Virus record (IMG/VR): IMGVR_UViG_3300030382_003394
Span: 1 to 28,664 of that record
Origin: a virus
Direction: 5' to 3' (one strand)
DNA length: 28,664 nt
The position numbers and the translations under genes are program-made. Below, one piece after another: positions 1,366 through 21,545 of the stretch. Each line of letters begins with the position of its first letter. Positions within the stretch are counted from its first letter, which is position 1. The notes beneath the pieces are model-generated. The model searched no databases, was not told where the DNA came from, and was given only the letters and a program-made list of their open reading frames with translations.

Positions 1366-1366
1366 A

Positions 1367-2089: not shown

Positions 2090-2105
2090 TGTGTATCCCT
2101 CCTTG

Positions 2106-2135
2106 CGGGGCATCAACATCTCAGATGATGCCCCG
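2106..2135 (-). promoter_or_regulatory. 10-bp-stem hairpin directly upstream of the coiled-coil gene's ribosome site
   Basis: Plus-strand CGGGGCATCA (2106-2115) pairs perfectly with TGATGCCCCG (2126-2135) around a ten-base loop. In the minus-strand transcript the stem ends one or two bases before the AAGGAGGG ribosome site of the gene starting at 2089. There is no U-tract after it, so it is not a classical terminator. It may control access to the ribosome site, or protect or process the mRNA after the decoration gene. Confidence 0.7.
2114..2131. repeat. 18-base sequence repeated exactly at 16929-16946
   Basis: CAACATCTCAGATGATGC occurs here in the loop and arm of the hairpin, and again in the same orientation inside the giant gene, where it encodes part of A-S-S-E-M-L-D. 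The core CATCTCAGATG is itself an odd-length palindrome. Flanking bases differ, so the identity is limited to these 18 bases. Confidence 0.85.
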
Positions 2136-2164
2136 AAGGGTTATTCTATTGTTTGTTGAGTAAC

Positions 2165-2554
2165 TTAGTTACCTACGACATGAATGGTCACTGTCATATT
2201 CGCGGGAGAACCAGCTCCAGCAACTTCGTCAATGTCGAGGTCGAATACAGCCGCCTCGGAAAAGAGTGCCGTGCCGTTACTGTTCATGTCGCTCCGCGTA
2301 ATGGTGGCAGTGCTACCATTAGTGTCATCATGCGCCAACTGAAGCGTATCAGCTGCCCAGAGGTCGTTAGAACCGTTGGCAACCATCGCTTCGTTAGCAG
2401 CCGAACCAGAACCGTTCTCCTGCACACATAGTGTTACACGCTCAATGTAACCATCGAACGGCATAACACATGCAGCTTGGCTATCGCCAGCAGAAAGAGT
2501 TCCGTCCACGTGCATGATAAGAGTTGCCCATTTTCCAGAATGATTATAGCTCAT
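2165..2554 (-). CDS. Probable capsid decoration or head-fibre protein
   Basis: The 129-residue protein is small and predicted all-beta: short alternating hydrophobic strands (GYIERVTLCVQENGSG, ATITRSDMN, MTVTIHVVGN) with many Gly, Ser, Asn and Asp. It has no signal peptide or helix-rich part. This composition and its place immediately after the major capsid gene are typical of decoration proteins that bind and stabilise the outer shell. The start is set by GGGGA eight bases upstream, which overlaps the capsid stop (TAGGGGAATAAATCATG), so translation is probably coupled to capsid synthesis. Function is inferred from position and composition, not from a recognised family motif. Confidence 0.6.
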   Translation of the reverse strand: MSYNHSGKWATLIMHVDGTLSAGDSQAACVMPFDGYIERVTLCVQENGSGSAANEAMVANGSNDLWAADTLQLAHDDTNGSTATITRSDMNSNGTALFSEAAVFDLDIDEVAGAGSPANMTVTIHVVGN

Positions 2555-2565
2555 GATTTATTCCC

Positions 2566-3597: not shown

Positions 3598-3622
3598 AGT
3601 CTATATTTCTCCCAAAATTTAT

Positions 3623-4414
3623 TTATTGTGGCAGTTGGTCGGACCCTATTTGTCCTCTCTCTGCCTTTTTATAGATGGCATCCCATTCCTCGTAAGGAAT
3701 GTCGTTCCATCTAGCTTGTCCGGGTGTGGCCCCCTGGGGTACCGAAGTGGTAACTTGGGGAGGTTGAACCCGATTCTGTTGAGGCTGAACACTTTGTGGA
3801 GCCGGTTGCAGCTGTTGCTGTTGCTGCTCCTGCATATGCCGCATCCGAGCATTGGAGTATCTTAGTGCCGAGTGTTGCATATTCTCGATTGACGAGTTAT
3901 CCAACTCCGACATAGGAATACCCATTTGCTGGTAATACCCACGCCACTGTTGCATAGCATCCGCATATTCTAGCTGATATGACATGTTCGATACATGTTG
4001 TTGCGCTTCCTCTGCTCTGTTACGATAGAGGTCACGTTCATAAGCAACACGTTCCGAATCGCTCATGTCAGACATTTGCATCTGCTGAACCTGCTGTGAC
4101 ATGTGTTCACGTTCACTTGCCCACTCTTCTTCCCGCGATCTTAATGCACGGTCCGAAGCAGAAAGTTGGCTTCGCATACGGTTCAGTTGTTGCTGGGCCT
4201 GCTTCAGCTGCGCTTGCGTTTGCGTTGCTATAGTAGCTGGATCAGGCTGTTGCGCTTGGGTTGGGCCGGTACTTTCGTGTACCGGGGCGGCCCCGGGTGA
4301 TGCTCCCGCTTGCGCGGCAGGATCTGCCCCTTCTGACTGTGCTCCCTGTGGTATATACTTCACACCACTTGTGGCAGGACTCTCAGAAGTTTGCTGAGTG
4401 TGATCTTCAGGCAT
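3623..4414 (-). CDS. Probable capsid scaffold protein
   Basis: This 263-residue protein has the make-up of a phage scaffold, which guides capsid assembly and is then lost. The first 70 residues are Ala/Gln/Pro-rich and disordered. Residues about 70-145 form a strong coiled coil (QAQLKQAQQQLNRMRSQLSA and SREEEWASEREHMSQQVQQM). A second helix pair follows, then a Gln-rich tract (EQQQQQLQPAPQSVQPQQ). It ends with a short charged segment (YEEWDAIYKKAERG) suited to docking on the capsid shell. It lies directly upstream of the major capsid gene, the usual scaffold position. AGGAGGG five bases before the ATG is one of the strongest ribosome sites in the window. No protease motif is seen. The call rests on composition and position. 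Confidence 0.7.
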   Translation of the reverse strand: MPEDHTQQTSESPATSGVKYIPQGAQSEGADPAAQAGASPGAAPVHESTGPTQAQQPDPATIATQTQAQLKQAQQQLNRMRSQLSASDRALRSREEEWASEREHMSQQVQQMQMSDMSDSERVAYERDLYRNRAEEAQQHVSNMSYQLEYADAMQQWRGYYQQMGIPMSELDNSSIENMQHSALRYSNARMRHMQEQQQQQLQPAPQSVQPQQNRVQPPQVTTSVPQGATPGQARWNDIPYEEWDAIYKKAERGQIGSDQLPQ

Positions 4415-4445
4415 ATTGCCCTCCTATAAAGTTGTTAAAGCCTAC

Positions 4446-4485
4446 TGTTCATACAATGAACATTATACAAGAATTACTCTTGTAT
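4446..4485 (-). promoter_or_regulatory. Two adjacent perfect inverted repeats between giant and scaffold genes
   Basis: In the 79-base gap (4415-4493), plus-strand bases 4465-4485 read ATACAAGA-ATTAC-TCTTGTAT (8-bp perfect stem, 5-base loop). Bases 4446-4462 read TGTTCAT-ACA-ATGAACA (7-bp perfect stem, 3-base loop). Only two bases separate them. Neither is followed by a U-tract in the minus-strand transcript, so they are not ordinary intrinsic terminators. They may be RNA-processing or stability hairpins decoupling capsid-gene expression from the giant gene, or paired protein-binding sites on DNA. Confidence 0.7.
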
Positions 4486-4493
4486 GGCAAGCA

Positions 4494-7400
4494 TTACTGT
4501 TGCACTACTGTACCCGCAGCACTGGGCTCAACATAACCTTCTTGCCACGGATATACCACTGGATCCTGCGAAATATTCTCACTAGGTCCTCTAGCTAATG
4601 CCAATTTACGTAACCTATCTAAAAAGTTTTCCCAACTATTATACGGCTCTACTCTTGCCTTGAGTGATTCTAAATATTTCAAAGTCTCATCACTTACTGA
4701 ACCCGACAATATCTCATCCAATGCTACACCAGAAATTTGAATAGTAGGCCACGGAGAAGGCCCTGTTGCTTTGGCGCCTTTTCCTAGATCAGTCATAGAT
4801 ACATTCTTATAACTATCTCGCAAGAACCCTGGGCCTACCGCATAATGGTACATGTTACCACCTGCCGACCCTATAGTACCCATGCCAGACGAAGTTCCAG
4901 TGCTTTTTGATGGGTCGATACCACCATACTCTACCGACAATGGATCTTTGCCCTTATAATTTTCTGGGTCATAATATTTTTGCCATAATGGATAATCTAT
5001 ACCATACACTTTTTTCAAATCCCATCCTGATTCAAGGGTTTCATAATCTTCAGGGAACTGTTCGCGCCATTCAGCCCGGTCTTTCGGAGACATATCAAAG
5101 TATCTTTGTTCTTGTCCTCTCCAATCAGGCCCATACATTTTCTCGCGATGTTCCTTGAAGTCCTCGTTGAGTTCTTCCACCTGTGCCCATTCGCTAATCA
5201 TCGAATCGGATGGCTCGTCTAATCCAAGAATCTCTGCAGTTGCATACACTGCATTGTAAACTTTCATAAAGAACTCTTCGTCCCAATTAACCCAAACACC
5301 TCTATCACCTAGCTGTCTTCTTTCAGATTTCATCATATCTAAAAGAGCATCTTTTATATCATCACCAAAGTTTTTACTAAGAGTTGACAAGAATTTTGAT
5401 TTTTTAGGTCCAGCCCATCCATATATTCTATAGATCTCTGCACCATCGTTTTCTCGTTTAGTACTACGTTGTTCCTCCCTATCTTCTATAGTGACTCTAT
5501 CCTCACCTTCTCCATAACGTGCGGCCAATACCACACCGTCAGACCACTTACCTTTATACTCTGGTACTTCATTCATCCATTGTAATAATTGTGCATCGCT
5601 TGGGCCACCTGGATACTTCTCTTTGTATGCTAATTCTTTTTCAGTTCGAGCATAACCCTTAGCATCACCTATGTAATCCCAATAACCTCCCCAATAATTG
5701 TCTCTCCACACCCTATTCATAGCATCATACAAGTCATCATTCATTGTATCCCAGCCATTCCATCGACTTCCATTTGCCATAGATAGTAATTCTTTTTTGG
5801 CTGCTAAATCTGTACCACCCATCAATTTATGGAACATGTTAACTTTTTCACCTGTCGGCTCATAATAATCATCTAACACATCTTGTTCCACATTTATACC
5901 AATAGCTGCCATATCTCCAACAAACCCAGAAAACTGTGTTTCTGCTATTTTAGGTAATAGAGCAGTCTCCCACTCTAATATTTTCTCTTGGTACTCTGGA
6001 TATGTTTGCAGAATGGGGTCATAACTTGGCCTAGTATCACCTAATTTATTCATCCACTGATCTATAATATAAGTTTTGATTGTATCCTCGTGCTTATTGT
6101 AAGGTTTCCAATCTTCTTTAGTGGCATCTGGGAATCTTTCTTTTAGACTTTCTATGCCCTGACTATACTCCTCATAGTATGGTTGCAACACTTCCCAAGG
6201 AGTGCCAACTGGATGCGAAGCAACTTGTAAATCTCGAACTCTTTTGATTTGTCCCCTTGCCGCAACCATAGCCATCATCTCGGTTTGTAAAGCAAGCTGT
6301 TTTTGTATTGCTTCCCAGCGATCTTCTCCATGCAAGGCCTTCCCATCTTCATCCGTAACCCATCCGACAGTAGAATAGGTAGCCCCTATAATACCTTCAG
6401 CCGTATTATATCGCTGTTCCTGACGTATTTTTTCAAACCCCGCGTGCTGTTCTATCAAGCCTTTCAATATATTGTTTTCATCTCTAATTTTATATAACTC
6501 ACCTTCATAATCATGTCCTGATTTCATGTATATACCAGTGAAGTAACCAATCAGACGAGCAAAGTATTCGTCTTTTTCTAATGTCTTACGAGCTGCTATC
6601 CAAAGTGAATCTTCTTTATGAAACTCTTCAGTTCCCTTCATATAATTATTTACATCAGCATCAGGACGAGTTTCTATCGCATGTTTTGCAGCTAACGCAA
6701 TTTGCTCTCTGGTAGCTCTATCTGATTCAGGTACACCATCAATCTGCTCTAATGCAGTAAGTAACACCTGTCTTTCAATCAAGAAGTCTTTCCATGTAAC
6801 CTCTGGGGTAATGAGGTCATGCTCAAAATTCATACGCAATGTGCCATCAAGCTTGGTTTTCATATCTCTTTGCATCCATTCTGGTATTAAATCTATTTGC
6901 CCAACCGGAGACCTTTTAGGATAATCCTCCTCATTTATCACTTTTGTCCATCGCAATGGCGCAACCCACCAAGGACCTAAATGAAATCCTAGGCGTGGGC
7001 CATAAGCAAAGAAATAAGCAGCGATTTTATTCATTACAGGTTCTTCTGGGTCAGGAGCTTTATAAGATACAGAACGCCAATCTGGTACAGCTTGAGAGAC
7101 AGAAAATGGAGACAATGGGTTGTACCACCAATTGGTGCCGGCTAAATTGAGGTAGCCCTTGAACCTAGCCAATGGTTTACCATAGCTGTTTACGTGTCCT
7201 TCATCATAAGCAACTCGCTCAGACATGTCTTGGATTTTATTGAAAGTGGCAAGTAATTTAGGATTAGTTGCTAGTTGCTGACCCCAAAAACTTAGTGATC
7301 TCGTAGGAAACACCCAAAATGGAAATATTGACTTCATTATTTGATCCAAGTTAGTTTGACTACCGTAGTCAACCATTATATCGCCCACTTCTTTTACGGC

Positions 7401-10400
7401 ACCTTTTATCTGCCTTAGCTCAGAATAAGTTTGACTGTTAGAACCATTTATTAGACGGCCTAATAAACCTGGGTTATTCTGCCAATTGTGTGTATATGGA
7501 TTCGCGGTAGATGCAAAAAATCCCGGAGCAATAATATCAACATCTTCGGGACTCGGCATCCCACGAAATTCCGCCGCCGTTCGTTGGCCCTCAAGTGGAA
7601 GCAGAGTTTTCTGTGGTAATAATGAGCCCTTTTTCAATCTTTTCCAGTTTATCCATTCACGCGGATCGCTTTTCAACCAATCTACATATTGTTGATACCT
7701 TTCATTGAAAAATTTTAGTCCTTCGTCACCATATTCTGAACGTATCTCCCCCTGCATTTTATTCAGTCGGTATCCACCATTATTCACGTTGTTTGGGTCA
7801 TATTTCATGTAGTCTTCAAGGAAGTTATCAACATTCTGTTCAGCAATAAAATCACGCCTGAAAGCTTCTTGCATCGATTCCCAGAACTCATCGGTTTTAT
7901 TTGCAAGTTCCAAAAATTCACTCGGCACCTGACTGGCAAATCGTGGTTTAGCTGCAGAGCCAATATCATAATCTTTTGGTTTTGAAGTGCCGTGCATAGA
8001 AACTCTTTTGGCGATCTTTAAGCTTGGAATTACATCGGTTTGTAATTTTTCAAGTATCAGTACTAATTCTTCGGGGTCTATACCCATTGTTTTCTTCATG
8101 CTACCTTCTGGGTCTACAAGAGTAATAAACCACTTGTCAAGCATATTATTATAATTTTCATAAGCCTCTCGTAGAAGTTTCTTTCCCAATTCCGGACCGC
8201 CAGGTCCTATGCCTTCTTTTGAACTAAGGTTGAATATTGATCCCCAGCTACCAAACATACCTTCATCCCCAAAAGGATTCCGCCAAAAATTAGGATTACC
8301 GGCTATTGTCTTATTGCCTTCTATTGTGTGTGACCCTGCAGGCAGGGTAGTGCCTGCATCTAGTAACCTCTCAGGTAAATAGTCTGTTTTGGTGTATTGT
8401 ATTGGAGCTTCACTAGAAATTCGTATATCAAAAGGTATCTGCGCCTCGCTTAATTTTAATTGAAGTTGAGCATGTGCATTAGTGATTCGATCATTGATAC
8501 GCTGTAGTAAAGCTTCCTGAGTTGTAATCAAGCCTTCACTAAGTTCACTGATTTTACCATCAGCACCCTCCGTTAAGGAACTTACCAAGACTCTTTCATG
8601 CTGGGGCATAAGACGGTCTATCACATCCGCATAATGCCAAACTGTGGGTTCATCCATCAATTGTGGTACTTCTTGTGCTTTACCAAATATACCACCACGA
8701 ATTTCGTTAAGTATTTGAATTTCGGTTTCATCCAAAAAGTGTATACCTATGCCTGTGCCATCTACTTTATTACGAACTGTTCCCAATAAGAAATCTGCAA
8801 TTCCTCCACCTACAAAAACTCCTTTCCTGGTTCCAGGTATAGTAGACCAACCTGTACTGAAAGGTTTGCTTGTTTTGCCAGTACCTTTATTGCTAGCTAG
8901 TAACTCAATTGGATTGAATAATGCCTCATTAATATCATTCAATTGCCGTGTTATAAACTTGCGGTATACTTCAGCATTGTCTGTTAAATCAGACATATCT
9001 TTCATGTTCTGCGGAATCGTATAAGCAGCAATGTCGTCAGCCATCTCTGGCTCTAGTAACATTGCTGCTAGTCTACTTCTGAGTATTTTCCCTCGCTCAG
9101 AAAATACAAACACAGGTTCAGCTCCTGTATCAACGTGCTTGAATACTTCGGTTAAAGATGTCTCAGGTATAAATCCGTGATTCAAAAGCATATCGTCAAT
9201 AGTTTTCCAAAACGCAATCCAAGTCTGTGGTGTAATAAATTTATCAACTTCTCCACTTTTGCCCATCTCGCTTAACATTTCTACAACTTCTTTTGACTCT
9301 CTAAGTCGTTGAAAGGCTACTATTTCTGCAGGCTCCCATGCGTTTCTTACCTGTTCTGTTGCCCATCGCTTGAATGACTCTTGAACAACCCCTGGATATT
9401 GAGATACTTCGTCTATAGATTCCCACGGACCTATTGACATAGGAGATATCCGACCTTTTTGATCCCATAAGTCTTGATTGCCTTCCTTATTGAAAACCTC
9501 GTCCAATAATGTCTTATCGAATTCTTCTACATTTTTTAACGCCATAGCTTCTGGGGTTTCAAGTAGTAGCTGATATTGTTCGCGATTGTAATTTCTCCAT
9601 ATCTCTTTGGGAGATTGTGTGCTCTTTTCTTTCATACTACGCACAAATTTGCCCATCTTATCGGCATCCTCTACAAATTCTATGTCAAGTACAAAACCGA
9701 ACTTAAGGGCTTGATACCTTACTTTTTGTTGCGGGTCTTCAAATTTGACAAGAATGTTTCCAAGTGCTGATCCTCCACCCTCCAATTGAGTAACATCGGC
9801 GGTATCTCCAGATCGTCCAAGTTGTATGATATCGCTTGTTTGGTTGTCAACGATTCGTTCTGCTCGTATTCTGGCTCGTCCAGGGACGGCATTGTTTCTG
9901 ATGGCATTTAAGAAGTGCTCCTCGGGCTGTAGCCCTGATATACTGTCTACTATTGTGTCTGTATAACTAAATCGCACGTAGTGCTTACCTTGGTCTAAGA
10001 AATTGGCGGCTGGTACATTTCTTTTTATATTTGCTATATATTCTGCAATAGCCTTACTAATATTTTGATCGTAATTTGGCTGTGTTGCCCTTGAGATCAA
10101 ACGCATCAACTCTGTTAAAACTTCATTTTCTATCATCGCTTTACTGTGATAGCGATTGTTCGGAGAAATTAAAGTCTCAATTACGTCCTCTAAAGCCAGG
10201 TTGGGAAGGAACATTCTAGCTTTTGTTACCATATCTGCAGCGTGTAATATTTCATCAAGCATCCGAGCTTCAAGTGGTAAAGTCTTTAGATTGGTATACT
10301 GCATTAACACTTCATCAAGTAATGTGCGTATGTATACATCTGAATTTCTCGTATAATGATTAGCTAAATTATGTGCAATAACTAAGTTGTCTTTTCCTAA

Positions 10401-13400
10401 TAAATCTATAAACGCCGCACGCGCTAATCTATCTGCTAACACTTCTGCTGATACATCTTTAGCAATATTGCTGGCCTGTACGTTTATAGCTCCCCACGAA
10501 GCTTCATCGCCAGCATTAAGATTAATTTTCGTGCTGACCTCATCTAGAAATGCTTTTTCTTTTTCCCAAATCTTATAGAGGGTATCTAAATTATCATCAA
10601 GTAGTTGTGGGTTATTAGCTATCCTTATCATCCGCATAATTTCGGACTGTTGCACTGGCTCATCAATCATTTTCACTAACACCCAATTATTCCCGGAGTT
10701 AATTCGATTCATGATAAATTCATTTTGCTCAGGGTTATCACCCAAGATTCCATGCTGCATTAATGTCTTTTGGTCTTTTACAGCTTTTTGGTATTGCAAC
10801 CAATTATCGTGGTGGGTATCCAAGTTGTTCGCCAAGTTCAGTATATTTTCTGACCCGGGGTATCTGGAATACTTATTCATCAATAGCATATTGATACGAG
10901 CATTGCCATCAATAACATTACCGTACCGGTCTATCACCGGCATACCTGAACCAAAGATTCTATGGTCCTCCAAAAGGCGATTGATATTTATGCTTTGAGC
11001 ATTCAACCTTATTGCCTCTGCTGCCACTTGTGGATTTTTTGGAACAACTATATTCCAATTTGTAGGCGCATTAGGATTGAGTACCATTTCAAACTGACCT
11101 AATTTATCAGTAGCTAATATGTGTTGAGGCGTTGCATCGTCTATATTTATTAACACAATTTTAGTAGTAACTGTTTTCTGGTCGACACCATCACTAGCTA
11201 GAGTGCTAATGTTGTAACTCTCTTTCCCGTAAATCGGTTCCATGCTCCACGTTGGAACATCAGTAGAATACTGGGCACTAATAGTGAAGTCATCCACGCT
11301 ATGAAAATGAATATCATTTGTCATAACATATTTTTTCTTGTTCCATGTGACCTCGACACCCTCAAACCCGGATACGTGTCCCATCGTAAACTTGCGCACC
11401 TCACCTGGATACTGCTTTTTTGGCACCAACTTATAACCTCTCTCAGGCGCGATCAGTACCACATCGTCTCCATTGATTTTGAATGGATCTCTAAGTCGTA
11501 AAGATTTATTGTCTTTTATTCTTTTTAAAGTTGCTCCAGATTTTGTCTGAGCCGCAGCAAACTTGGTGCCTTTAGGTTTTGCTATGCGCTCAGGTGGGAA
11601 ATTCTGTAAATTAACATCAATTACACTACGCTTCTCCAAATCTTGGAGATACGCATCCCACGACAACGGCCCACCCTCTAAAGGATGATACTCCCGTAAC
11701 CCAAAAGTATGCCCAGGCTCTGTATAATAATCGTAACGAGCCCTTATCTCATTTGTTATTTTTCTATAATCAGGATGTTCTGCAATTTCTTCTTGAAAAT
11801 TGAAAAACTTCCAACGTCGCCAATTATCGTAATCATTCCCGAATACATCACGCCAATCATCTGTTATTCGCCACTCTAGTTCGGGAGATACATGCAATCC
11901 TTGTATATGGGTAAGTGCATTTAGTTTGTCAGCTGCATCTTGAGCATCGGCCCTGTGGTTAAATACCCCCCCACCTGCTACTGCAGTTCCGTTTTTGTTG
12001 TAAATTTTATACCCTTTGAAATACATTGGATCTTCATTTCTGGCATAAAGCGACGGTACATCGTATAAGGCCGCAGGTTGCAATGTCTCTAAAACATCTA
12101 ACTGGTCCGATAAGACCTTTTTAATTGTTGCGGCTTCATCTAAGCCTGATTGCACCAGTTCTTGGGATAGTTTGCGTGCGGCCTCTAAATCTTTTAGCAT
12201 ACCCCTTATGACATGTATGCCCTCTTGAGGATGATTTATGAAATCAACCCGCCGAGCCGCTTCTCTAAAGAATCGTTCGTATAATTCTGTTCCTTTCACA
12301 AGTTCTCCGGTTCCCTCGAATAGTTGTGCCCCTTCCAAGAACGACTGGTCTTCTACATTTTTATATGCCTGTTGTTTTAATAGTTTATCCCAACTGTTTT
12401 TCAGCTGCTTGATTTCAGATTCAGTAGCCTCTGCTTTTTTAGGTATCCAGTTTTCAAGTTTTTTAGCCTGGCCAACATCTGCTTCAGTCAACATTTTCGC
12501 ATAAGTCGTGTCTACTTGTAGTTGTGGAGCTAACTCTGCCAGAGCCCTTCCACTTTTTGATATCGACATGCCTAATTCTTCCGGATCCCTATATGGCAGC
12601 AAATACCCTAGGGTTTGTGCTGTGTCTGCATGCCTAGCAAACTCTCGTGTTGCTTCTAAGTTCTTATTCTGCCCTATATAAAAACGTGTAATAGCATAAT
12701 TACGGTAATCATGTGGTCTTAGTTCCCTCTTATCTAGGATAGGCTTTCCGCTCGCGTCTTTCGCATCTTTTGCAGCTTTTTCCATGTGGCTACGTAATTG
12801 AGTTGGTATTTTTTTAGGTGCGCTTTTAAACTTTGTCTCACCCGGCAACCAAGTAAACAGCAGCCTGTTATCCCAATCCGTCTTTTCAGCAGTTTTTAAA
12901 ACACTCCTAACAAAGCCCTCGTACTTCGTTAGTGCCTGAATTGCATCCTCTTGTAATCGATATGCACCTCCCTCATTTTTTTCTACTCCCTTCCAAAGCT
13001 GGCCTTCTAGTTTAGGATTATGCAACCAAACCTCACCAAGTTCCAAATCTAGGTCTCCCCAGCTAAGATGTGACATAGCATCCCATCGTGAATTAGTGCC
13101 TGCTAACAACTCAGATAAAGCCCAAGTACGCATACGCTTTGCTTTTACGCCTGGTTCTAAGCCTGTTTCCAGAGCTTCGTTTTTAAGATATGTTAGGATT
13201 TGGTGAAAATCCCCAAATCTAGGCCTTATAGCATCAGGCCTAGTATCTTTTATTTTCACCTTTTTACCTAATGTAGACTCTGGATCACTCAAATGGGCTG
13301 CAATTGATTTTGATAACTTATTACGATTGTCATGCCAAGTTGCATCCAATGAATACACCTTGTCATCCACTAAAGTAAGACGATTTGTAATCTCTGTTTC

Positions 13401-16400
13401 AGCACGCTTCCATGCCTCAGCTATCGTTGCTTGTTTCTTAGCTTGCTGAGGATCTACAACATGTTTTATTCGTTTTCGCTGGGCTTCCCACTGTTTTGTT
13501 TTGAAATTAATGTTACTACGTACTTCTACTAGTAGGTCTCGTGTCTTTATTAGCTCACCTAAATTACCGGTATTTATTCTAACGTCATCTAAAGCCATCA
13601 GCATAGATACAATTTTTGGCAACTTCGCTCTACCTTTGGAATCGACTACACCTGCTAATTGTCTTCTTTTTTCTCTAGCAGTCAGTTTTTCATATTTGGT
13701 ATTATAATCAGCCCAGTACTCAGCCGCAATCTCATTGTATTCTGTAAGGTCATTCCATATAGCATGTTTAGTTGATTTAACCCTTGTGAGACCTCCACCA
13801 CCTGGTCCAAGTAATTCTCCTGGGCCTGCGGCAGATAATAATAATTTACCAACTCTATTTCTCTCATCAATTAAGGCGTCATACTCCAAAAGAAATTGAG
13901 TAGGAACATTCTTGCCGCCCCTCACAGCCTTTTTTAATATATCAAACCGTGCCTTCCTTACTTTGTTTATTACTTCTTTATCTTTCCATGCCAAACCGGT
14001 CATGTTATCTATATTTTTATGCCCCTGTCTACCAGACAACACAGTCATTATCCTGGCATGCTCTTTATCTGTAAACCATTGCCAACCATATTTTCGGGCT
14101 TTCTCTTCATCAGCCATACGCAACCAAACCATAAAATCTTCTAAACTTAATAGCCAGGGAATAGCATCGGGTGGAATTTGCTTCTTATATAAACGGTAAG
14201 TTGGTATTCTTCCGTCTTCCCGATAAATTGCATAACGCCAGCCGGCATCTAAACCCTCTGAATTTCTTACAGCATTATTTGCTACTTCATTGAGGCGGGC
14301 CCTAGCATGTTTAACACTAAATTGCACGTCTTCTAGAACCCCTTCAGCTACTGTGGCAAGCTCCCACCCTTCCATATGAAGTCTTTCAGGACTTATTAGT
14401 TCATCTGGAGCAAAGTCTAGACTGTCAAAAGCTGCCTCTTGAGCTACAGAACGATGTTTAGAATATTTTTTACTAAACCCTCGTGCCAATTCACGGTCTT
14501 GGAATAACTCGATAAGACGTTGTTCCGTTGCTAATGCCGATACCAATACATGATCTGGAAGTATTTGGCCTTCCTGAATTGCTTTACCAATATGATCTAA
14601 ATAATTAGTGTAACGTCTAGCCTGAATTTCCCTGTTTGCTTTGCTTTCCCATGTCAATGCTAAACTTGTAAAAGGATCTGCCTTCGCATATTCGACACCA
14701 AACAAGTCCGCATATAAAGCACGTGCCTCTTCCATTACATCGTCATCGCTAAGACGATCAGGCATTTTTCCGTTTTCCAATAAACTTTTTATTTCAATTT
14801 GATCAAGATCTTTAAAGATGTTATCCAACCTTTGCATATTTACTATATGGTTAGCAAAATCCTTTTTACCGATACCTTTAGCTGCGCCCTTGGGGAATAA
14901 AATTCGATTCCATTCAATGCCATTCAATCTTGCTATTGTGCTTAATACTTTCCAATCTTCTTTGGCAAGGTTTTCGGCAGTATACTCAGTTGCACCAGTT
15001 AGATAATTACGTACTCTAACTTTCTTTTCTGCCTTCAAGCCCCAACCCGGGGTTGTTCCACCATCGTCTAAAATATGAGGTATTAAAGCACCAGAATCTG
15101 GGTGTGTTAAATACTCTGACGCAGTATTTCTTAGAATAAGTGATTTGTGGTACTCCATTACTGGGTCTGCCTTTCCTGTTTGACTTACTAGCTTTTGTGT
15201 GTCAGCTAGTAAGGTATGTTCCTTTTTCATAATATTTTGGAGAGCCAACATACCACTCTCGTGATTGGGTACTTTTTTCATGCCTTCTACAATTGCTTTT
15301 TCTTCTAATCTTATTGTTAACTGCTCCGCATAAGTTTCTAGGTGCCCCAAATCTCGAGCAATATAATCAGGAGTGCTACCTTGCCCTTTATAAATTATTT
15401 TCTTGTGATTTAGAGTACTTACTATCATCTGAAGTTCACTAATACTTTGTTCTTCCGGTGGAAATTTGTCCAGCATGCTCTCAGTTTGTCCGGCTCCTAC
15501 CAAACTAGCATTAAGATCATCGGTAGCTGTTGCTTTTCCTATGGGATTTACTTTACCGTTTTCGACGACATCTTGCAAATCCAATGCCTTTTGGGGTGAA
15601 GTTACTTCTTCCACCGCTTCTTCCACCGCTTTTTTCAAAGGCGGCGGCGTTCCAACTTTTCGTTTTGGTTCATCAAATAAGTAACCCAGTGCATAATGGT
15701 CATACTTCACTGGTACCTTCGTAACAACGCCTTTGAAAGAATCTAGTTTCATTGTTGTTGCAGTGTGCCAACCACGCCAGAGATAGCCGTCAGACGTCAT
15801 AAGGTATGGGTCAAATTTTCGACCATTCGTTAGTGCCAACAAAGGCTTAAACGATTGAGGTTTTTCAGGAATTACCTGCATGTGTAGGATATGGTTCGGC
15901 TTTGGTACTGAGTTCTCTGACTCCCAGCCCAGGTTATAAAAATCATCTATACCCATTGTACTATTTTCAGGATCTCTAATAGCACCACCACTAAGAAGAT
16001 CGTCTAACTCTCCGGCTTCGTGTTCAACCGGAATATCAAATCCAGCTACCTTTACTGTGCGCTCAGGGGATTTTATAAAGACTGGGTCGAGACTCGTTGG
16101 CTCCACCCATTCTTTGAAATCAATCATACCGAGCCACCCTTTTGCAAACTCTGGTTTTTTGAAATGTACACCAATCCTGCCGGGCATTTTTTTCAGGTCG
16201 TTGTATAAATTTATATCGTCTTTCTTTAATTTCTCTAAAAACCTTGTCCACGCTGTTGGATCTTCATCAAGCTTCAGCACGGTATATAACGTATCCCATC
16301 CTTTCCCTTCTTCCCCAAATGCCGCAGTAAGCCAGCCCTTAGTAGATTTCAACTCGTCTAATTTTAGCAGTGCTTCATCTAAATGGTTTATTATCTCTTC

Positions 16401-19400
16401 TACATGTTTATGAAGTTCAATTTGATTTACGCGTCTTTTGCCTTCCTTTGTAAAAATACCGTCATTTAGTATTTTAATAGGAAACAAATGTTGGTCTATA
16501 ATATCTTGGTAAGCAGCATTGATTCTCGCATTCATAACCATCGCCATACGTTGTTGTACTTTGTAAGCATCCACACCCTTCCCGGTTTTTTCGCCGGTAA
16601 GTGGAGCTGTATGTCGCCCTCTAAAGGGTGCAACTACTCCCTTATTTTTCCATATATCTTTGGGACCTGCTGCATCCATTACCATTGCATCTTGTAAAGC
16701 TGACCCTGGTAGATAATGGACGAACATGTCGCGGTTTAAGTCATTTATTTCTTGTGTAGCCTGCTTGATATTCGCTAAGAAATTATCGGCTCTTTTTATT
16801 ATATCTTCACCATCGACTATTAGTACACCGCTAGATATTAGTTCTTTCGTCTGCTTTGAGTTAAGTAGGGTTCTAAGTTTTTTGACAGTGGTTTCTGTCT
16901 GCGCATTTATATCTTTAACCCGGTGGTCCAACATCTCAGATGATGCGGCATATGCAGGAGTGTAACTTTCTTTAGACTCGTGTAATGTCTCACTGCCCTT
17001 CCCTTTTCCGCTATACTTTGCATGGTCGGCTTCCGACACGTCACTCAGTACATATTCAACTGATGGCCTCGTTTCTTCAACCACTTTTCCTTCACCACCA
17101 CCACCCGGTTTGGGGTGAGGGTCTGTAGGAAGACCTACGTTGCCAGAACCCTTAGCACTATCGTTCGCGTCCAATTGCTTAAGAACTTTTTGAAAACTTT
17201 CATCCAGAGTGTGCCGATGTCTCCTAAATATGTCTATCACATCTTGAGCCCCCAAACTACCTCTACGCGAATGTGGAGTATGAGCATTCAGTGTTTTCAC
17301 TATATCGTCTTCAATAGCTTTCTGTATTCTAGCAAAGTCTTGAGCCACAACTTTGCTTACATTATATTCCCTCAATAATTCTGTGCCCAACTTGTAATTC
17401 TGTAGCACTTCAGGCAAAAAAGGTGCAGCATGTAGCTGACCAGTAGCATCATCTATAGCCAGGGACACAAATTTCATAAGGTCCTCGGGATTTTTAGTAC
17501 GCCTACCTATTACATGCTTTAGTAATTCTTGCCCACTCTTCTTAATGCCAGGGGTTTCGTATATTATTCTCTCAAAAATAAATTCTGCCATACTATCATA
17601 TGTTTTCCAATATTTTTGATCATAAAGCCTTATCCTCATCATTACCTCAAAAGCTTCATTGTAATCCCTCATCATCTCTACAAAAGTAGCGTAACTAGCA
17701 TCTATCTTTCCCCAGGGTGCACCCTCGGGGAACTTTTTGAAATCGAATTGGAATATTTTTTTCCAAAAAGGCCAACCTTTGCGTCCAATCGGATAAGGAA
17801 AAACTTCAAAAGCAGTTCCCATCGGTAAGTCCTTTACCCCTGCCGCGATCAGTTTTTCTCTATGGCTTGCACTTTGACTAATGTCACTAATAGCTTCTAT
17901 CCAATCGTTAAATTTCCAAAATCTTGGCAGACGTTTTCTTTCTAGCCACTTCCTCGCTATGTGGCCAAGCTCAGTGCCAGCAAAAGCCGCCAATACCTCT
18001 TGAGCTATTGGAGTATTCTCCAGAATCTCATGTATATCCCTTCTCAAAAACTCTGGTCCATTTCCGCCCACCAAGGCACGGAAAGTAGAATCAATAACAT
18101 TACGCACAGTAAAGCCAGGCCTAGCACTTAAGTTGGCTTCTATCCACAATCTACGCAACCACATAGGAGTTTTACCAACAATTTCATCTACCTGTGTCCC
18201 ATCAACCTCTATCTTATTACCATGTCGGTCATATACAATAGCACCGACAGGCATCCCGTGCCTTTTAAAAAACTCATTTTTTAGACGGTTCGTGAACTGC
18301 TCCATAATAAGCTCATGCTGTCGTCTCACACCGAGCTCTGTCCACATCTGTTGGCCATCAACCCCATCGGGTAAAAGCTGTTTAGCTCTTTCCATACTAT
18401 CATCTAAAATGTCTAATATGCCTTGAAATGGATCTCCTTTAGCAGTCGCAGCTTGCACCTCATCACTATATCTTAAGAGGTTTTCTACTTGTTTCATACG
18501 TCCCAAAAAGCTTTGTGCCAAACCACGTCGCAAAACATGCTCTACTGCACCTCCCGGCTTAGGCTTAATTTTAATCGTTTTCAAAGTCCCCGGTAAATGG
18601 TATGTCTTTCCAGGTAGCGGTACGTTTTTAGACTGCATTCCTACTAGATGAAATCTGTAAAATAATGTTCGTTGGTCTGCTACAGGAACTAGTCCTGTTC
18701 TTATCTTCATATCCTGTTCAGCGACCTCTTCTATAATATGACCACCCCCTTGAAAATCGATTCCTTTACCTGTACGTCGTCTTAGTTCCTCTTCAAGAAA
18801 TTTTAGGTGCTCTTCTTCATCTAATGAACTAAAACTCCAATGACCTCTTTGTGCGCCTTGCTTCCCAGGGTCACGTGGAATTGCATCCCTAATAATTTCT
18901 TTAGTTCTATCTATCTCCTTAAGAAGTTCATCGTCAGCCATTTTGGCGTACTCGAAAAAGTCTCCGCCTATAAGAGTTTTGACTAATCTTTTAAGTACAG
19001 GGCCACCAACAGGTCTTCCGCCCAAATCAGGCAATATGTTATCTATCTTCCCTATAGGTCGTAGACCTTCAAGGTCTTTAAGAATTTTCCCGTCAATATC
19101 AACAGCACCTCTCCAAATTACACTTCCGTCCTCTGCGCTTAGAGTAATAACTTTGTCTGTCGCAGACCCAATATCCCAAGGCTTACTATCAATAACTATT
19201 CCGCCCAACTCACTGACATTTGCTTTTCTGGCTGGAGATTTAAAAAGGCCAGTATCTACAAAATTTCCCTGACCAGTAGCAGTTTTCCACAACAACGCAC
19301 TAACATTCTTATCACCGCCACCTGTATTTACCTGTTGATTAACAACACTTTCTAAAACGTCTTCTCCATCAACTGTTCTAATTAATGCATCTATTCCTTC

Positions 19401-21545
19401 TTGGCCGGTCTCTACAACATCTCCCACTAATTTATCACTACTAGAATTTAATGCCTGAGCAAATAATTGTTTGACAGCCGGGATTTTTTCCACTTGTTTC
19501 CACAACTGCTTTGTTGCCCAACTCAATCCAGTATACTTAGTGCCTACTCCTAATACCCCCTTAACCCATGGTGCTGGTGTAAAATTAAAAAAATCAAAGA
19601 AAAATTCAGCCGCCATTTGAATATTAGGGTCTTCGTATCTCATCTTTAGTTCGTCAGTCTCATGATGGTTTAAGCCGCGTGGCGGTAAACCTTGATTTGC
19701 TCTGTCAGCATTTATATGCTTTAGTAAATAATATTTTTCTTTATAATAATCTTCTTCTGCTTTTGCATCATAAAGCCATGTATACGAAAAATCTTTAGCT
19801 TCGTCATATCTTAATTTTGCTTCTTCTTCGGTCCAGTTTTTACTCCAAGGATGTAATATCTGGTCCACCAATGAGCGGTGTTTTGATAATGCTATACCAA
19901 TATATTCAGCGTAATGAGAAGAATATCTGTCTGTAGGATCCGTAGCTGGATTAGTACGTGTCGCAAACTTTTCTTCTGGGTCGGCACTATAGATTTCTTT
20001 TAGCTTCCGTCCGGACCACTTAAGAAAACCTTCTTCTTCTCTGTGGTCAGGCAGACTAGGAGCCAAAATTTCTCCAGTTCGGGCCAACCTATTTTTAAAA
20101 TGCTGCCAACCCTTTCTCCCGCCCTCTACAAGGCTGTCAGGCTGTGGCTCACTATCCATGCGTGCCTTAATTGCTTTTATGTTCTCAAACGTACCTGAAG
20201 ACATTACTTGGCCATAGCGCGTAGGCCCTGTAATGAACCCACCTGGCCTTATCATAGCCGCCACCGCATGGAACGGTATCATCACGCCTGCTCCAATTGT
20301 ACTTATAGTTGATGCGATACCACCAAGTATAGAAACACCTCTATCGTACATACCTCCAATAAACTCTACTTGCGCCTTACCTCTAGGGCCAGACTGATAC
20401 ATTAAACCTGCCTTTTGTTCTATCCAATTCCAACCAATTGATTCTAGACTGTCTAATAGCTTTTGTATGCCAGTAGGTGGGCCAGTCTCGATGTGTTGAC
20501 CCGCTATATATAGAGGGTCAACACTTTTCCCGCCCTTATTTCTATACTCTACATCACCTTCAAAGAAATAGGTTGGTGCTATGTTACTGCCTGGAGGAGG
20601 ATCTGGTAAGTTTTTATATGAAAAATCTTCAAATGGGGGTAAACCACTTGCTGTACCATCTATTCCTTTACCATCAGCAAACACGGTATTTCTAAAGCTA
20701 GCAGGTAACTTTCCTCCAGTAGTGTGGTATATCCATGCCAAAGTCATTGCTTCGGTATCTTTATAGCTTTGTGTATACACATTCTCCCTTGCTACAAATC
20801 CTCCTTTAACCTCAATATGCCGACCCACAAACTCTGCTAACTCTGCCCTCTGCAAGTTTTGCATTCTCCCCCGACGGTACCAATGTAATATTAGAGGCAC
20901 ATAATAACCAAGCTGATTGTTAGCATTAAATCTCCATTCATTAAAATCATCCGGCCCAAATGTTTTGCTATCCTCTATTGCTCCTCGTTTTCTAAGTTCA
21001 TATTCAACATGTCGTCTTTCTGCGGAAGTCATACTGAATATACCAACCGCATCGCCATGTACTCTTTCTTCATCACCACCAGAACGCGCCTGGATAATGG
21101 CCAAAATCACGTGTAATGGACCATCTATCCGAGTTCCTTTAAAACCTGCACTCTCTATAAGTGCAGTAGCTTCCTGGAAAAACTTCAGGGCACCTGCCTC
21201 TTCATCAATTACCTCAGATAGATCCTCAGCTAGTTCGCGTGGATCTCTTTCGTCTAACCGGGGAGCATCACTAGGTGCATCTGCCGGCTCTTCATCAGCT
21301 ACTTCAGGCGGCCTAATAATGTCTGGCATTCCCTCCGCAGCCTGTACCTGAGTCGCAACCTGCTCTTGTCTAACACGCGCTGGCCTACCTTCCTGTATTG
21401 AGGGAGTAACAACAGATGGTTTATCAATGCCAATAGGCCGAGGACCACCTGCTACCGGTGTTCTAGGTTTGAGTTCCTCGGCCCATCGTGCAAAACCGCT
21501 TTTTATTCGTTTTTTTCTTACTGCTTGTTCTCTTATGATAGCCAT
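4494..21545 (-). CDS. Giant polyvalent virion-type protein (5683 residues)
   Basis: One open frame of 17 kb without stop or frameshift, among the largest single phage genes. Order seen: basic start (REQAVRKKRIKSGFARW), acidic linker (about 70-115), lysozyme-like region lacking its Glu (138-243), hydrophobic segment (404-432), mixed helical region with LSARPGFTVRNVIDS (1139-1153), Gly-rich linker (about 1462-1486), tyrosine-recombinase domain (2764-2999), ddrB-type ParB-like domain (3504-3650), aromatic FPFWVFPTRSLSFW segment (4741-4754), Trp/Tyr-rich charged C-terminus. Position between portal and capsid genes is where N4 and T7 relatives keep ejected internal proteins. The domain mix matches known phage polyvalent proteins, packaged and delivered with DNA. 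No RNA polymerase motif was found, so this does not look like an N4 vRNAP. The ATG follows TAA-TAT with no good Shine-Dalgarno, implying translational coupling. Virion location is inferred. Confidence 0.85.
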   Translation of the reverse strand: MAIIREQAVRKKRIKSGFARWAEELKPRTPVAGGPRPIGIDKPSVVTPSIQEGRPARVRQEQVATQVQAAEGMPDIIRPPEVADEEPADAPSDAPRLDERDPRELAEDLSEVIDEEAGALKFFQEATALIESAGFKGTRIDGPLHVILAIIQARSGGDEERVHGDAVGIFSMTSAERRHVEYELRKRGAIEDSKTFGPDDFNEWRFNANNQLGYYVPLILHWYRRGRMQNLQRAELAEFVGRHIEVKGGFVARENVYTQSYKDTEAMTLAWIYHTTGGKLPASFRNTVFADGKGIDGTASGLPPFEDFSYKNLPDPPPGSNIAPTYFFEGDVEYRNKGGKSVDPLYIAGQHIETGPPTGIQKLLDSLESIGWNWIEQKAGLMYQSGPRGKAQVEFIGGMYDRGVSILGGIASTISTIGAGVMIPFHAVAAMIRPGGFITGPTRYGQVMSSGTFENIKAIKARMDSEPQPDSLVEGGRKGWQHFKNRLARTGEILAPSLPDHREEEGFLKWSGRKLKEIYSADPEEKFATRTNPATDPTDRYSSHYAEYIGIALSKHRSLVDQILHPWSKNWTEEEAKLRYDEAKDFSYTWLYDAKAEEDYYKEKYYLLKHINADRANQGLPPRGLNHHETDELKMRYEDPNIQMAAEFFFDFFNFTPAPWVKGVLGVGTKYTGLSWATKQLWKQVEKIPAVKQLFAQALNSSSDKLVGDVVETGQEGIDALIRTVDGEDVLESVVNQQVNTGGGDKNVSALLWKTATGQGNFVDTGLFKSPARKANVSELGGIVIDSKPWDIGSATDKVITLSAEDGSVIWRGAVDIDGKILKDLEGLRPIGKIDNILPDLGGRPVGGPVLKRLVKTLIGGDFFEYAKMADDELLKEIDRTKEIIRDAIPRDPGKQGAQRGHWSFSSLDEEEHLKFLEEELRRRTGKGIDFQGGGHIIEEVAEQDMKIRTGLVPVADQRTLFYRFHLVGMQSKNVPLPGKTYHLPGTLKTIKIKPKPGGAVEHVLRRGLAQSFLGRMKQVENLLRYSDEVQAATAKGDPFQGILDILDDSMERAKQLLPDGVDGQQMWTELGVRRQHELIMEQFTNRLKNEFFKRHGMPVGAIVYDRHGNKIEVDGTQVDEIVGKTPMWLRRLWIEANLSARPGFTVRNVIDSTFRALVGGNGPEFLRRDIHEILENTPIAQEVLAAFAGTELGHIARKWLERKRLPRFWKFNDWIEAISDISQSASHREKLIAAGVKDLPMGTAFEVFPYPIGRKGWPFWKKIFQFDFKKFPEGAPWGKIDASYATFVEMMRDYNEAFEVMMRIRLYDQKYWKTYDSMAEFIFERIIYETPGIKKSGQELLKHVIGRRTKNPEDLMKFVSLAIDDATGQLHAAPFLPEVLQNYKLGTELLREYNVSKVVAQDFARIQKAIEDDIVKTLNAHTPHSRRGSLGAQDVIDIFRRHRHTLDESFQKVLKQLDANDSAKGSGNVGLPTDPHPKPGGGGEGKVVEETRPSVEYVLSDVSEADHAKYSGKGKGSETLHESKESYTPAYAASSEMLDHRVKDINAQTETTVKKLRTLLNSKQTKELISSGVLIVDGEDIIKRADNFLANIKQATQEINDLNRDMFVHYLPGSALQDAMVMDAAGPKDIWKNKGVVAPFRGRHTAPLTGEKTGKGVDAYKVQQRMAMVMNARINAAYQDIIDQHLFPIKILNDGIFTKEGKRRVNQIELHKHVEEIINHLDEALLKLDELKSTKGWLTAAFGEEGKGWDTLYTVLKLDEDPTAWTRFLEKLKKDDINLYNDLKKMPGRIGVHFKKPEFAKGWLGMIDFKEWVEPTSLDPVFIKSPERTVKVAGFDIPVEHEAGELDDLLSGGAIRDPENSTMGIDDFYNLGWESENSVPKPNHILHMQVIPEKPQSFKPLLALTNGRKFDPYLMTSDGYLWRGWHTATTMKLDSFKGVVTKVPVKYDHYALGYLFDEPKRKVGTPPPLKKAVEEAVEEVTSPQKALDLQDVVENGKVNPIGKATATDDLNASLVGAGQTESMLDKFPPEEQSISELQMIVSTLNHKKIIYKGQGSTPDYIARDLGHLETYAEQLTIRLEEKAIVEGMKKVPNHESGMLALQNIMKKEHTLLADTQKLVSQTGKADPVMEYHKSLILRNTASEYLTHPDSGALIPHILDDGGTTPGWGLKAEKKVRVRNYLTGATEYTAENLAKEDWKVLSTIARLNGIEWNRILFPKGAAKGIGKKDFANHIVNMQRLDNIFKDLDQIEIKSLLENGKMPDRLSDDDVMEEARALYADLFGVEYAKADPFTSLALTWESKANREIQARRYTNYLDHIGKAIQEGQILPDHVLVSALATEQRLIELFQDRELARGFSKKYSKHRSVAQEAAFDSLDFAPDELISPERLHMEGWELATVAEGVLEDVQFSVKHARARLNEVANNAVRNSEGLDAGWRYAIYREDGRIPTYRLYKKQIPPDAIPWLLSLEDFMVWLRMADEEKARKYGWQWFTDKEHARIMTVLSGRQGHKNIDNMTGLAWKDKEVINKVRKARFDILKKAVRGGKNVPTQFLLEYDALIDERNRVGKLLLSAAGPGELLGPGGGGLTRVKSTKHAIWNDLTEYNEIAAEYWADYNTKYEKLTAREKRRQLAGVVDSKGRAKLPKIVSMLMALDDVRINTGNLGELIKTRDLLVEVRSNINFKTKQWEAQRKRIKHVVDPQQAKKQATIAEAWKRAETEITNRLTLVDDKVYSLDATWHDNRNKLSKSIAAHLSDPESTLGKKVKIKDTRPDAIRPRFGDFHQILTYLKNEALETGLEPGVKAKRMRTWALSELLAGTNSRWDAMSHLSWGDLDLELGEVWLHNPKLEGQLWKGVEKNEGGAYRLQEDAIQALTKYEGFVRSVLKTAEKTDWDNRLLFTWLPGETKFKSAPKKIPTQLRSHMEKAAKDAKDASGKPILDKRELRPHDYRNYAITRFYIGQNKNLEATREFARHADTAQTLGYLLPYRDPEELGMSISKSGRALAELAPQLQVDTTYAKMLTEADVGQAKKLENWIPKKAEATESEIKQLKNSWDKLLKQQAYKNVEDQSFLEGAQLFEGTGELVKGTELYERFFREAARRVDFINHPQEGIHVIRGMLKDLEAARKLSQELVQSGLDEAATIKKVLSDQLDVLETLQPAALYDVPSLYARNEDPMYFKGYKIYNKNGTAVAGGGVFNHRADAQDAADKLNALTHIQGLHVSPELEWRITDDWRDVFGNDYDNWRRWKFFNFQEEIAEHPDYRKITNEIRARYDYYTEPGHTFGLREYHPLEGGPLSWDAYLQDLEKRSVIDVNLQNFPPERIAKPKGTKFAAAQTKSGATLKRIKDNKSLRLRDPFKINGDDVVLIAPERGYKLVPKKQYPGEVRKFTMGHVSGFEGVEVTWNKKKYVMTNDIHFHSVDDFTISAQYSTDVPTWSMEPIYGKESYNISTLASDGVDQKTVTTKIVLINIDDATPQHILATDKLGQFEMVLNPNAPTNWNIVVPKNPQVAAEAIRLNAQSININRLLEDHRIFGSGMPVIDRYGNVIDGNARINMLLMNKYSRYPGSENILNLANNLDTHHDNWLQYQKAVKDQKTLMQHGILGDNPEQNEFIMNRINSGNNWVLVKMIDEPVQQSEIMRMIRIANNPQLLDDNLDTLYKIWEKEKAFLDEVSTKINLNAGDEASWGAINVQASNIAKDVSAEVLADRLARAAFIDLLGKDNLVIAHNLANHYTRNSDVYIRTLLDEVLMQYTNLKTLPLEARMLDEILHAADMVTKARMFLPNLALEDVIETLISPNNRYHSKAMIENEVLTELMRLISRATQPNYDQNISKAIAEYIANIKRNVPAANFLDQGKHYVRFSYTDTIVDSISGLQPEEHFLNAIRNNAVPGRARIRAERIVDNQTSDIIQLGRSGDTADVTQLEGGGSALGNILVKFEDPQQKVRYQALKFGFVLDIEFVEDADKMGKFVRSMKEKSTQSPKEIWRNYNREQYQLLLETPEAMALKNVEEFDKTLLDEVFNKEGNQDLWDQKGRISPMSIGPWESIDEVSQYPGVVQESFKRWATEQVRNAWEPAEIVAFQRLRESKEVVEMLSEMGKSGEVDKFITPQTWIAFWKTIDDMLLNHGFIPETSLTEVFKHVDTGAEPVFVFSERGKILRSRLAAMLLEPEMADDIAAYTIPQNMKDMSDLTDNAEVYRKFITRQLNDINEALFNPIELLASNKGTGKTSKPFSTGWSTIPGTRKGVFVGGGIADFLLGTVRNKVDGTGIGIHFLDETEIQILNEIRGGIFGKAQEVPQLMDEPTVWHYADVIDRLMPQHERVLVSSLTEGADGKISELSEGLITTQEALLQRINDRITNAHAQLQLKLSEAQIPFDIRISSEAPIQYTKTDYLPERLLDAGTTLPAGSHTIEGNKTIAGNPNFWRNPFGDEGMFGSWGSIFNLSSKEGIGPGGPELGKKLLREAYENYNNMLDKWFITLVDPEGSMKKTMGIDPEELVLILEKLQTDVIPSLKIAKRVSMHGTSKPKDYDIGSAAKPRFASQVPSEFLELANKTDEFWESMQEAFRRDFIAEQNVDNFLEDYMKYDPNNVNNGGYRLNKMQGEIRSEYGDEGLKFFNERYQQYVDWLKSDPREWINWKRLKKGSLLPQKTLLPLEGQRTAAEFRGMPSPEDVDIIAPGFFASTANPYTHNWQNNPGLLGRLINGSNSQTYSELRQIKGAVKEVGDIMVDYGSQTNLDQIMKSIFPFWVFPTRSLSFWGQQLATNPKLLATFNKIQDMSERVAYDEGHVNSYGKPLARFKGYLNLAGTNWWYNPLSPFSVSQAVPDWRSVSYKAPDPEEPVMNKIAAYFFAYGPRLGFHLGPWWVAPLRWTKVINEEDYPKRSPVGQIDLIPEWMQRDMKTKLDGTLRMNFEHDLITPEVTWKDFLIERQVLLTALEQIDGVPESDRATREQIALAAKHAIETRPDADVNNYMKGTEEFHKEDSLWIAARKTLEKDEYFARLIGYFTGIYMKSGHDYEGELYKIRDENNILKGLIEQHAGFEKIRQEQRYNTAEGIIGATYSTVGWVTDEDGKALHGEDRWEAIQKQLALQTEMMAMVAARGQIKRVRDLQVASHPVGTPWEVLQPYYEEYSQGIESLKERFPDATKEDWKPYNKHEDTIKTYIIDQWMNKLGDTRPSYDPILQTYPEYQEKILEWETALLPKIAETQFSGFVGDMAAIGINVEQDVLDDYYEPTGEKVNMFHKLMGGTDLAAKKELLSMANGSRWNGWDTMNDDLYDAMNRVWRDNYWGGYWDYIGDAKGYARTEKELAYKEKYPGGPSDAQLLQWMNEVPEYKGKWSDGVVLAARYGEGEDRVTIEDREEQRSTKRENDGAEIYRIYGWAGPKKSKFLSTLSKNFGDDIKDALLDMMKSERRQLGDRGVWVNWDEEFFMKVYNAVYATAEILGLDEPSDSMISEWAQVEELNEDFKEHREKMYGPDWRGQEQRYFDMSPKDRAEWREQFPEDYETLESGWDLKKVYGIDYPLWQKYYDPENYKGKDPLSVEYGGIDPSKSTGTSSGMGTIGSAGGNMYHYAVGPGFLRDSYKNVSMTDLGKGAKATGPSPWPTIQISGVALDEILSGSVSDETLKYLESLKARVEPYNSWENFLDRLRKLALARGPSENISQDPVVYPWQEGYVEPSAAGTVVQQ
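7236..7337 (-). other. Aromatic FPFWVFPTRSLSFW segment of the giant protein
   Basis: Residues 4737-4770. A strongly aromatic, hydrophobic stretch (IFPFWVFPTRSLSFWGQQLA) followed by a helix (TNPKLLATFNKI). Similar 'PF-x-x-F-x-x-x' patches occur near the C-termini of other very large phage internal proteins. The role could be membrane association or contact with the portal or core; neither is shown. Confidence 0.4.
10596..11036 (-). other. ddrB-type ParB-like domain inside the giant protein
   Basis: Residues 3504-3650. The core GSGMPVIDRYGNVIDGNAR matches the ParB/ddrB signature 'G-x-P-V-x-D-x-x-G-x-V-x-G-N-[GA]-R' (G3547-N-A-R3550). It is followed about 90 residues later by MIRIANNPQ, the 'x-x-a-N' strand typical of this superfamily, and then by a helical region. 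ddrB-type ParB domains are known from phage and conjugative-element polyvalent proteins and are thought to bind nucleotide or act on DNA. The exact activity here cannot be read from sequence. Confidence 0.6.
12549..13256 (-). other. Tyrosine-recombinase (phage integrase family) catalytic domain inside the giant protein
   Basis: Residues 2764-2999. Box I reads TNSRWDAMSHLSWGDLD and lines up without gaps with the Xer pattern 'TGLRxSELxxLxxxDI', giving R2820. K2856 sits in VEKNEGGAYRL, the expected beta-hairpin. LLFTWL matches the conserved 'LF' strand. Box II reads RPHDYRNYAIT, giving H2945 and R2948. ARHADTAQTLGY gives H2972 and the nucleophile Y2981, exactly nine residues apart as in XerD. 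All six catalytic positions are filled, so the domain may be active. Members of this family cut and rejoin DNA at short inverted-repeat sites. A core-binding domain probably precedes it but is not clear by eye. Confidence 0.75.
20250..20336 (-). other. Hydrophobic, glycine-rich segment of the giant protein
   Basis: Residues 404-432 (starting VSILGGIASTISTIGAGVM, then IPFHAVAAMI) carry no charge apart from one His. They are long enough to cross a membrane once, or twice as short helices around Pro424. In an ejected internal protein this could insert into the host membrane. It could also be a buried core helix. Confidence 0.5.
20817..21134 (-). other. Lysozyme/transglycosylase-like region of the giant protein, catalytic Glu replaced
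   Basis: Residues 138-243. The run ILAIIQARSGG followed by GDAVGIFSMT resembles the transglycosylase core 'AIIQxESGG ... GxxGLxQ'. The later NANNQLGYYVPLILHWY resembles the 'Ni-x-x-G-x-x-Y-L' helix. The residue at the catalytic Glu position is Arg154. Either the domain is a non-cleaving wall-binding relic or my alignment is off by a position. T7 gp16 likewise carries a transglycosylase at the N-terminus of an ejected protein. Confidence 0.5.

Follow-up and report, generated by a model that had tools for sequence, protein, structure and literature searches.

The gene described here raises the question of whether a tailed phage can carry a site-specific recombinase into the cell within its own particle, rather than expressing it there. 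The recombinases known from phages are synthesised from their genes once infection has begun. In the 28,664-base virus record that we analysed (the window, by which we mean the whole of this stretch of DNA), a single minus-strand open reading frame at positions 4494–21545 extends over 5683 codons with no internal stops, and a preliminary description had placed a tyrosine recombinase domain at 12549–13256, corresponding to residues ~2764–2999 of this giant protein. Whether that domain is real, whether it is likely to be active, and whether the protein that contains it enters the virion are considered in turn.

The giant gene is situated among the virion genes, all of which are encoded on the minus strand. 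Upstream of it are a probable portal protein gene (23307–25124), identified from weak portal matches and 36% identity to the protein of the related contig G008 that matches phrog_156 (portal) at 8e-5, and a conserved gene, P5 (21549–23111), which adjoins the giant gene and has positional homologues in the related contigs G003, G008, and G009. Downstream are a probable scaffold gene (3623–4414), conserved and assigned from its composition and its position preceding the capsid gene only, and an N4-gp56 family major capsid protein gene (2566–3597; TIGR04387, 146 bits, above the cut-off). Related contigs were retrieved from a scan of viral contigs in which the capsid protein served as the query, and their giant genes were then compared with that of the window. 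The order of portal, P5, giant, scaffold, and capsid genes is common to the window, G003 (IMGVR_UViG_3300027847_000980), and G009 (48 kb), and G008 (44 kb) has the portal, P5, and giant genes and retains downstream homologues of P10 and P11; no capsid homologue was matched in G008 by BLAST. The position of the giant gene between portal-side and scaffold/capsid genes, as first described, is therefore borne out by the gene order in both the window and its relatives. The giant homologues, whose gene position is kept, are 5544 (G003), 4455 (G008), and 4117 (G009) amino acids long, and that of G006 (IMGVR_UViG_3300035100_000612) exceeds 4205, a lower bound because its frame of 4205 codons runs off the contig end. 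Elsewhere in the window, a 428-residue protein (27203–28489) has an N-terminus matching endolysin/peptidase M15 and, at 231–280, a weak segment resembling an SLT transglycosylase, and a terminator-like GC-rich hairpin (2106–2135) is located around the start of gene 1367–2119 and the gap before gene 2165–2554.

First, residues ~2773–3005 of the giant protein (12531–13229, minus strand) constitute the catalytic domain of a tyrosine recombinase. The window domain matches PHROG 216 (integrase) with E=4.6e-6 and Pfam PF00589 (Phage_integrase) with E=1.1e-4 and 22.5 bits, below the curated cut-off of 27.1 bits; taken by itself the window match is only suggestive, and the identity of the domain is settled by relatives that lie above the cut-off, the homologous embedded domains of G006 and G003 scoring 41.1 and 57.0 bits respectively. 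The G006 giant protein aligns both to the window domain and to its flanks (BLAST E=2e-40, 28% identity over 509 columns), with 28–34% identity between the aligned domains, and the G003 domain sits at the collinear position within its 5544-codon frame. A three-row profile made from the giant-protein domains alone finds XerA, an XerC-like protein, XerD (twice), and IntI4 as its top five matches in the PDB (E=1.3e-4 to 2.8e-3), and single-sequence PDB searches with the window region returned chance matches only. No Pfam match to a SAM-like core-binding domain is seen in the window copy or in the two embedded homologues. The PHROG match, the Pfam scores of the homologues, and the predicted fold (see below) thus uphold the proposal of a tyrosine recombinase domain inside a 5683-residue protein, including the significant integrase-family match on which it depended.

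The fusion is carried by three distinct sequences only, all of the recombinase-bearing records being fragments of 12–30 kb, and no further carriers emerged from the viral contigs when the domain of every one of these lineages was used in turn as the query. We read the recombinase-bearing phages as marine from the origins of the samples and from their relatives. The sub-threshold Pfam score of the window domain by itself could be taken to favor an assembly chimera or a chance resemblance, but this has practically no probability and is ruled out, as one more contig encodes a protein 100% identical to that of the window, and the fusion recurs, uninterrupted by stops or frameshifts, in two diverged contigs that come from other samples.

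The predicted structure agrees with this assignment. A first AF2 model (residues 2617–3014, three rows) had a pLDDT of 47.5 and was too poor for use, residues 2617–2772 being badly modelled and the helices upstream of the catalytic part predicted at low confidence. A second, with a 25-row alignment, reached a pLDDT of 82.8 and a pTM of 0.80 over the catalytic part. In a Foldseek search the second model has XerA as its top match (E=6.5e-7), and VIA-align superposes it on XerA with a Z score of 17.6 over 178 residues at 3.7 Å and on Cre chains with Z of ~15, such that the superposition suggested at the outset gives a predicted domain resembling XerA and Cre (Z 15–18). Because the second model draws on 22 integrase rows it is supporting rather than independent evidence, and on this model the fold of the catalytic domain is that of a Xer/Cre-type tyrosine recombinase. 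The fold is also common to topoisomerase IB (2h7f, 1k4t), and the domain might accordingly relax DNA in the manner of a type IB topoisomerase, or be a telomere resolvase, working on DNA that is entering or replicating without site-specific exchange between two sites; however, the nearest matches in both sequence and fold are to Xer, IntI, and Cre proteins, with topoisomerases ranking lower, and we regard this as very improbable.

Secondly, the catalytic residues are conserved. R2820 (catalytic Arg I, 13086–13088), K2852 (catalytic Lys of the beta2-beta3 hairpin, 12990–12992), H2945 (His II, 12711–12713), R2948 (Arg II, 12702–12704), H2972 (His III, 12630–12632), and the nucleophile Y2981 (12603–12605), all on the minus strand, are identical in the three giant proteins (alignment A1) despite only 21–34% identity among them. 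R2820, H2945, R2948, and Y2981 likewise show no variation in the 25-row alignment (A7) of the three embedded domains and 22 stand-alone phage integrases, in which H2972 is conserved at a level of at least 90%. The preliminary description had named five of these six positions, along with the H-to-Y distance of nine, which is correct, and R2820, R2948, and Y2981, whose conservation in homologues it had singled out, were checked and are all invariant. Its lysine does not stand: residue 2856 is K, R, or N in the three proteins, and K2852, within WKG, FKG, or IKQ, instead has the position expected of the catalytic lysine. The chance of finding six of six such residues among the 35 invariant columns of 247 gap-free ones is ~5e-6, an estimate in which the lysine was chosen after alignment. 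From this pattern of conservation the embedded recombinase is probably active. One alternative is that strand exchange has been lost and that the domain persists as a DNA-binding or structural module, in the manner of the recombinase-derived regulators MrpR, YopR, and SroF, which have the same fold (8a0a, 8bpz, and 9rd5 in the fold comparison); the window copy is moreover divergent, with an end branch of 1.61 in the tree described below, and scores under the Pfam cut-off. The invariance of all six catalytic residues through three lineages so far apart counts against a silent DNA-binding role, and we consider this alternative quite improbable.

Thirdly, the embedded domains appear to have a common history. 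In a tree with 22 stand-alone integrases the three form one clade with support of 95/93, consistent with a single gain, and the recombinase module was apparently gained once and then retained. None of the 27 comparator integrases is embedded, all being encoded in frames of 170–540 codons, and the integrase of the distant relative G008, which is 315 residues long and includes a SAM-like domain, is encoded separately at the opposite end of its contig, in agreement with the earlier remark that an integrase is normally a stand-alone gene. Comparison of the window with G003 (L042/L043) is informative as to how the giant gene evolves, in that the capsid and portal proteins are 95% and 84% identical and the neighbouring proteins also nearly identical, whereas identity between the giant proteins ranges from 15 to 44% along their length. 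On these figures the giant gene changes, by divergence or by exchange, much more rapidly than the genes around it, and both giant proteins keep the catalytic hexad despite their deep divergence.

The giant protein has a conserved part towards each of its ends. A conserved C-terminal part (residues ~4613–5649; 4599–7709, minus strand) is 28–43% identical in all of the relatives, with or without a recombinase, and a conserved N-terminal part (residues ~1046–1450; 17196–18410, minus strand) is common to the giant proteins of G008 and G009, which share the two terminal parts of the window protein at 24–30% identity. The recombinase domain is absent from the giant proteins of the distant relatives G008 and G009, and these have an SF2/Strawberry-notch helicase in mid-protein (L036 of G008, 4889–18256; L040 of G009, 771–13124). 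The occurrence of a helicase there and a recombinase here, between common ends, points to exchange of enzymatic modules. Scanned in turn for the conserved C-terminal part and for the capsid protein, the bacterial and archaeal genome collection yielded no prophage. PF00589 has no match in the giant gene of either Vibrio phage 1.232.O or Ruegeria phage 45A6; in the latter phage a match lies in a separate 416-codon frame.

The giant protein is made up of several unrelated domains. In addition to the recombinase there is a DdrB-like ParB domain, with its core at residues ~3509–3555 (10881–11021, minus strand), which matches PF18763 at E=0.0088, below the cut-off, and in the G006 homologue at E=2e-5, also below the cut-off. 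Known modules of phage polyvalent proteins include SWI2/SNF2 helicase and ParB domains (PMC5512222), and the ParB domain, together with the helicase in homologous proteins, indicates a polyvalent make-up of the DarB/DdrB kind. Judged by its domain content, the giant protein is a phage polyvalent protein with a tyrosine recombinase module. Near its N-terminus (residues 120–270, window 20736–21188) there is a conserved motif, VIxAIxQARSxGDEExxxGDAxGxFxM, which by eye is lysozyme- or SLT-like, another residue taking the place of the catalytic Glu; the PDB profile search lent no support to a lysozyme fold of the SLT type over residues ~120–270, and this reading was rejected.

Polyvalent proteins have mainly been interpreted as conflict effectors (PMC5512222), and the recombinase could accordingly be a weapon or counter-defence function, delivered with the DNA and rearranging host or competitor DNA (prophages, plasmids, or dif-like sites, for example) or disturbing the host Xer system. 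The sister giant proteins, with an anti-restriction-type helicase and no recombinase, would fit such a role. Tyrosine recombinases are nevertheless site-specific and reversible, and make poor general nucleases, and we think it unlikely that this is what the domain does.

Several giant proteins of this general type are virion components. JC1 gp69, a DarB-like protein of 4515 amino acids, was represented by 51 unique peptides in virions (PMC9144972), P1 DarB and DdrB are virion proteins (PMC9024508), and the N4 virion RNA polymerase (vRNAP) is a giant virion protein (PMC12633501). The conserved C-terminal part of the window protein has no BLAST-level match to giant proteins of cultured phages, so the argument for packaging is one of analogy and gene position; on that footing the giant protein is probably packaged in the virion and ejected.

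We propose the following sequence of events. The conserved N- and C-terminal parts of a polyvalent protein would flank exchangeable enzymatic modules, one of which, in the window lineage, would be a Xer/Cre-type tyrosine recombinase with an intact active site, with the DdrB-like ParB domain nearby. The giant protein would enter the head by the portal/scaffold route and be ejected together with the phage DNA, and the recombinase would then perform site-specific strand exchange on the newly entered DNA before phage genes are expressed. Candidate outcomes are a Cre-lox-like circularisation of terminally redundant DNA, the resolution of multimers, or integration. As a whole explanation, a packaged polyvalent protein whose recombinase acts on incoming phage DNA seems to us evenly poised between right and wrong; the more specific claim, that the giant protein of a tailed phage is packaged and ejected with a site-specific tyrosine recombinase inside it, such that circularisation, resolution, or integration starts ahead of expression, we hold tentatively, at slightly under an even chance.

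The location of the gene can also be read differently. Lying between the portal and scaffold genes, it should be a late gene, active at the stage at which concatemers are resolved, and the giant protein could work in the producing cell during portal-side assembly, resolving concatemers or dimers or aiding packaging, and not be needed in the next cell. Late resolution would require no fusion to a giant protein, however, the integrase of the distant relative G008 is a separate protein, and known giant proteins of virion modules do enter the virion, all of which make this reading distinctly unlikely. As regards the sites on which a recombinase would act, a search for lox- or dif-like palindromes found no shared recombination site. 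Two lox-like palindromes occur within the giant gene of the window, at 20494–20523 (TGTTGACCCGC-TATATATA-GAGGGTCAACA) and 15184–15213 (CTTACTAGCTT-TTGTGTGT-CAGCTAGTAAG), each with 11-bp arms containing one mismatch and an 8-bp spacer; the arms of the two are unlike each other, and both palindromes are missing in G003 and G006 and barely exceed chance.

If the proposed delivery with the phage DNA is correct, the principle would be the one by which retroviruses carry an integrase in their particles, here in a virus of bacteria. With a recombinase built into a packaged giant protein, the earliest processing of the DNA (its circularisation or integration) would no longer await gene expression but would come with delivery. 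The repertoire of polyvalent proteins would gain an enzymatic class new to it, and there would be a natural example of DNA and a site-specific recombinase delivered jointly. The question is directly testable by comparison with the sister phages, whose homologous protein has a helicase and one of which encodes its integrase separately.

Comparison with known systems shows which of these features are shared and which are not. With Xer/IntI-type recombinases and phage integrases (PF00589, PHROG 216 and 1) the window domain has in common the catalytic fold and the R-K-H-R-H-Y residues, its nearest structures being XerA, Cre, and XerD; it differs in being a domain of ~230 residues within a 5683-residue virion-module protein and in lacking a recognisable SAM-like core-binding domain. 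In the Cre-loxP system of phage P1, a tyrosine recombinase can circularise terminally redundant phage DNA after its entry, and P1 likewise has DarB and DdrB in its virion. The arrangement in P1 is nonetheless different, as Cre is separate and regarded as a post-infection product, whereas here the recombinase is within the giant protein; we note that mass spectrometry of P1 virions detected nine proteins with two peptides each, four of which, including Cre, were excluded by the authors as non-structural (PMC9024508). The N4-like phages (Schitoviridae) likewise combine an N4-gp56 family capsid protein with a giant protein and deliver a packaged enzyme with their DNA, but that enzyme is an RNA polymerase, and no RNA polymerase domain was found in the window giant protein. 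Bacillus phage Pony (Pagevirus), which by its capsid protein (33% identity) is among the nearest isolates, has the same order of portal, scaffold, and capsid genes, but is without a giant gene between portal and scaffold and has no PF00589 match in its genome. Searches of the literature, covering open-licence papers, turned up nothing in the way of a packaged or virion-associated phage recombinase, in accord with the earlier statement that no such system has been described, and the survey of polyvalent proteins (PMC5512222) uses neither "integrase" nor "recombinase" in its main text. Among the closest parallels are the polyvalent proteins themselves (Iyer et al. 2017), such as DarB and DdrB of P1, the DarB homologues of Bcep22-like phages, and the vRNAP of N4-like phages, which are similarly very large, multidomain, and encoded in the virion module, and from which the window protein differs by its tyrosine recombinase domain. 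The setting is one already known from polyvalent proteins, and what would be new is the recombinase module within one of them.
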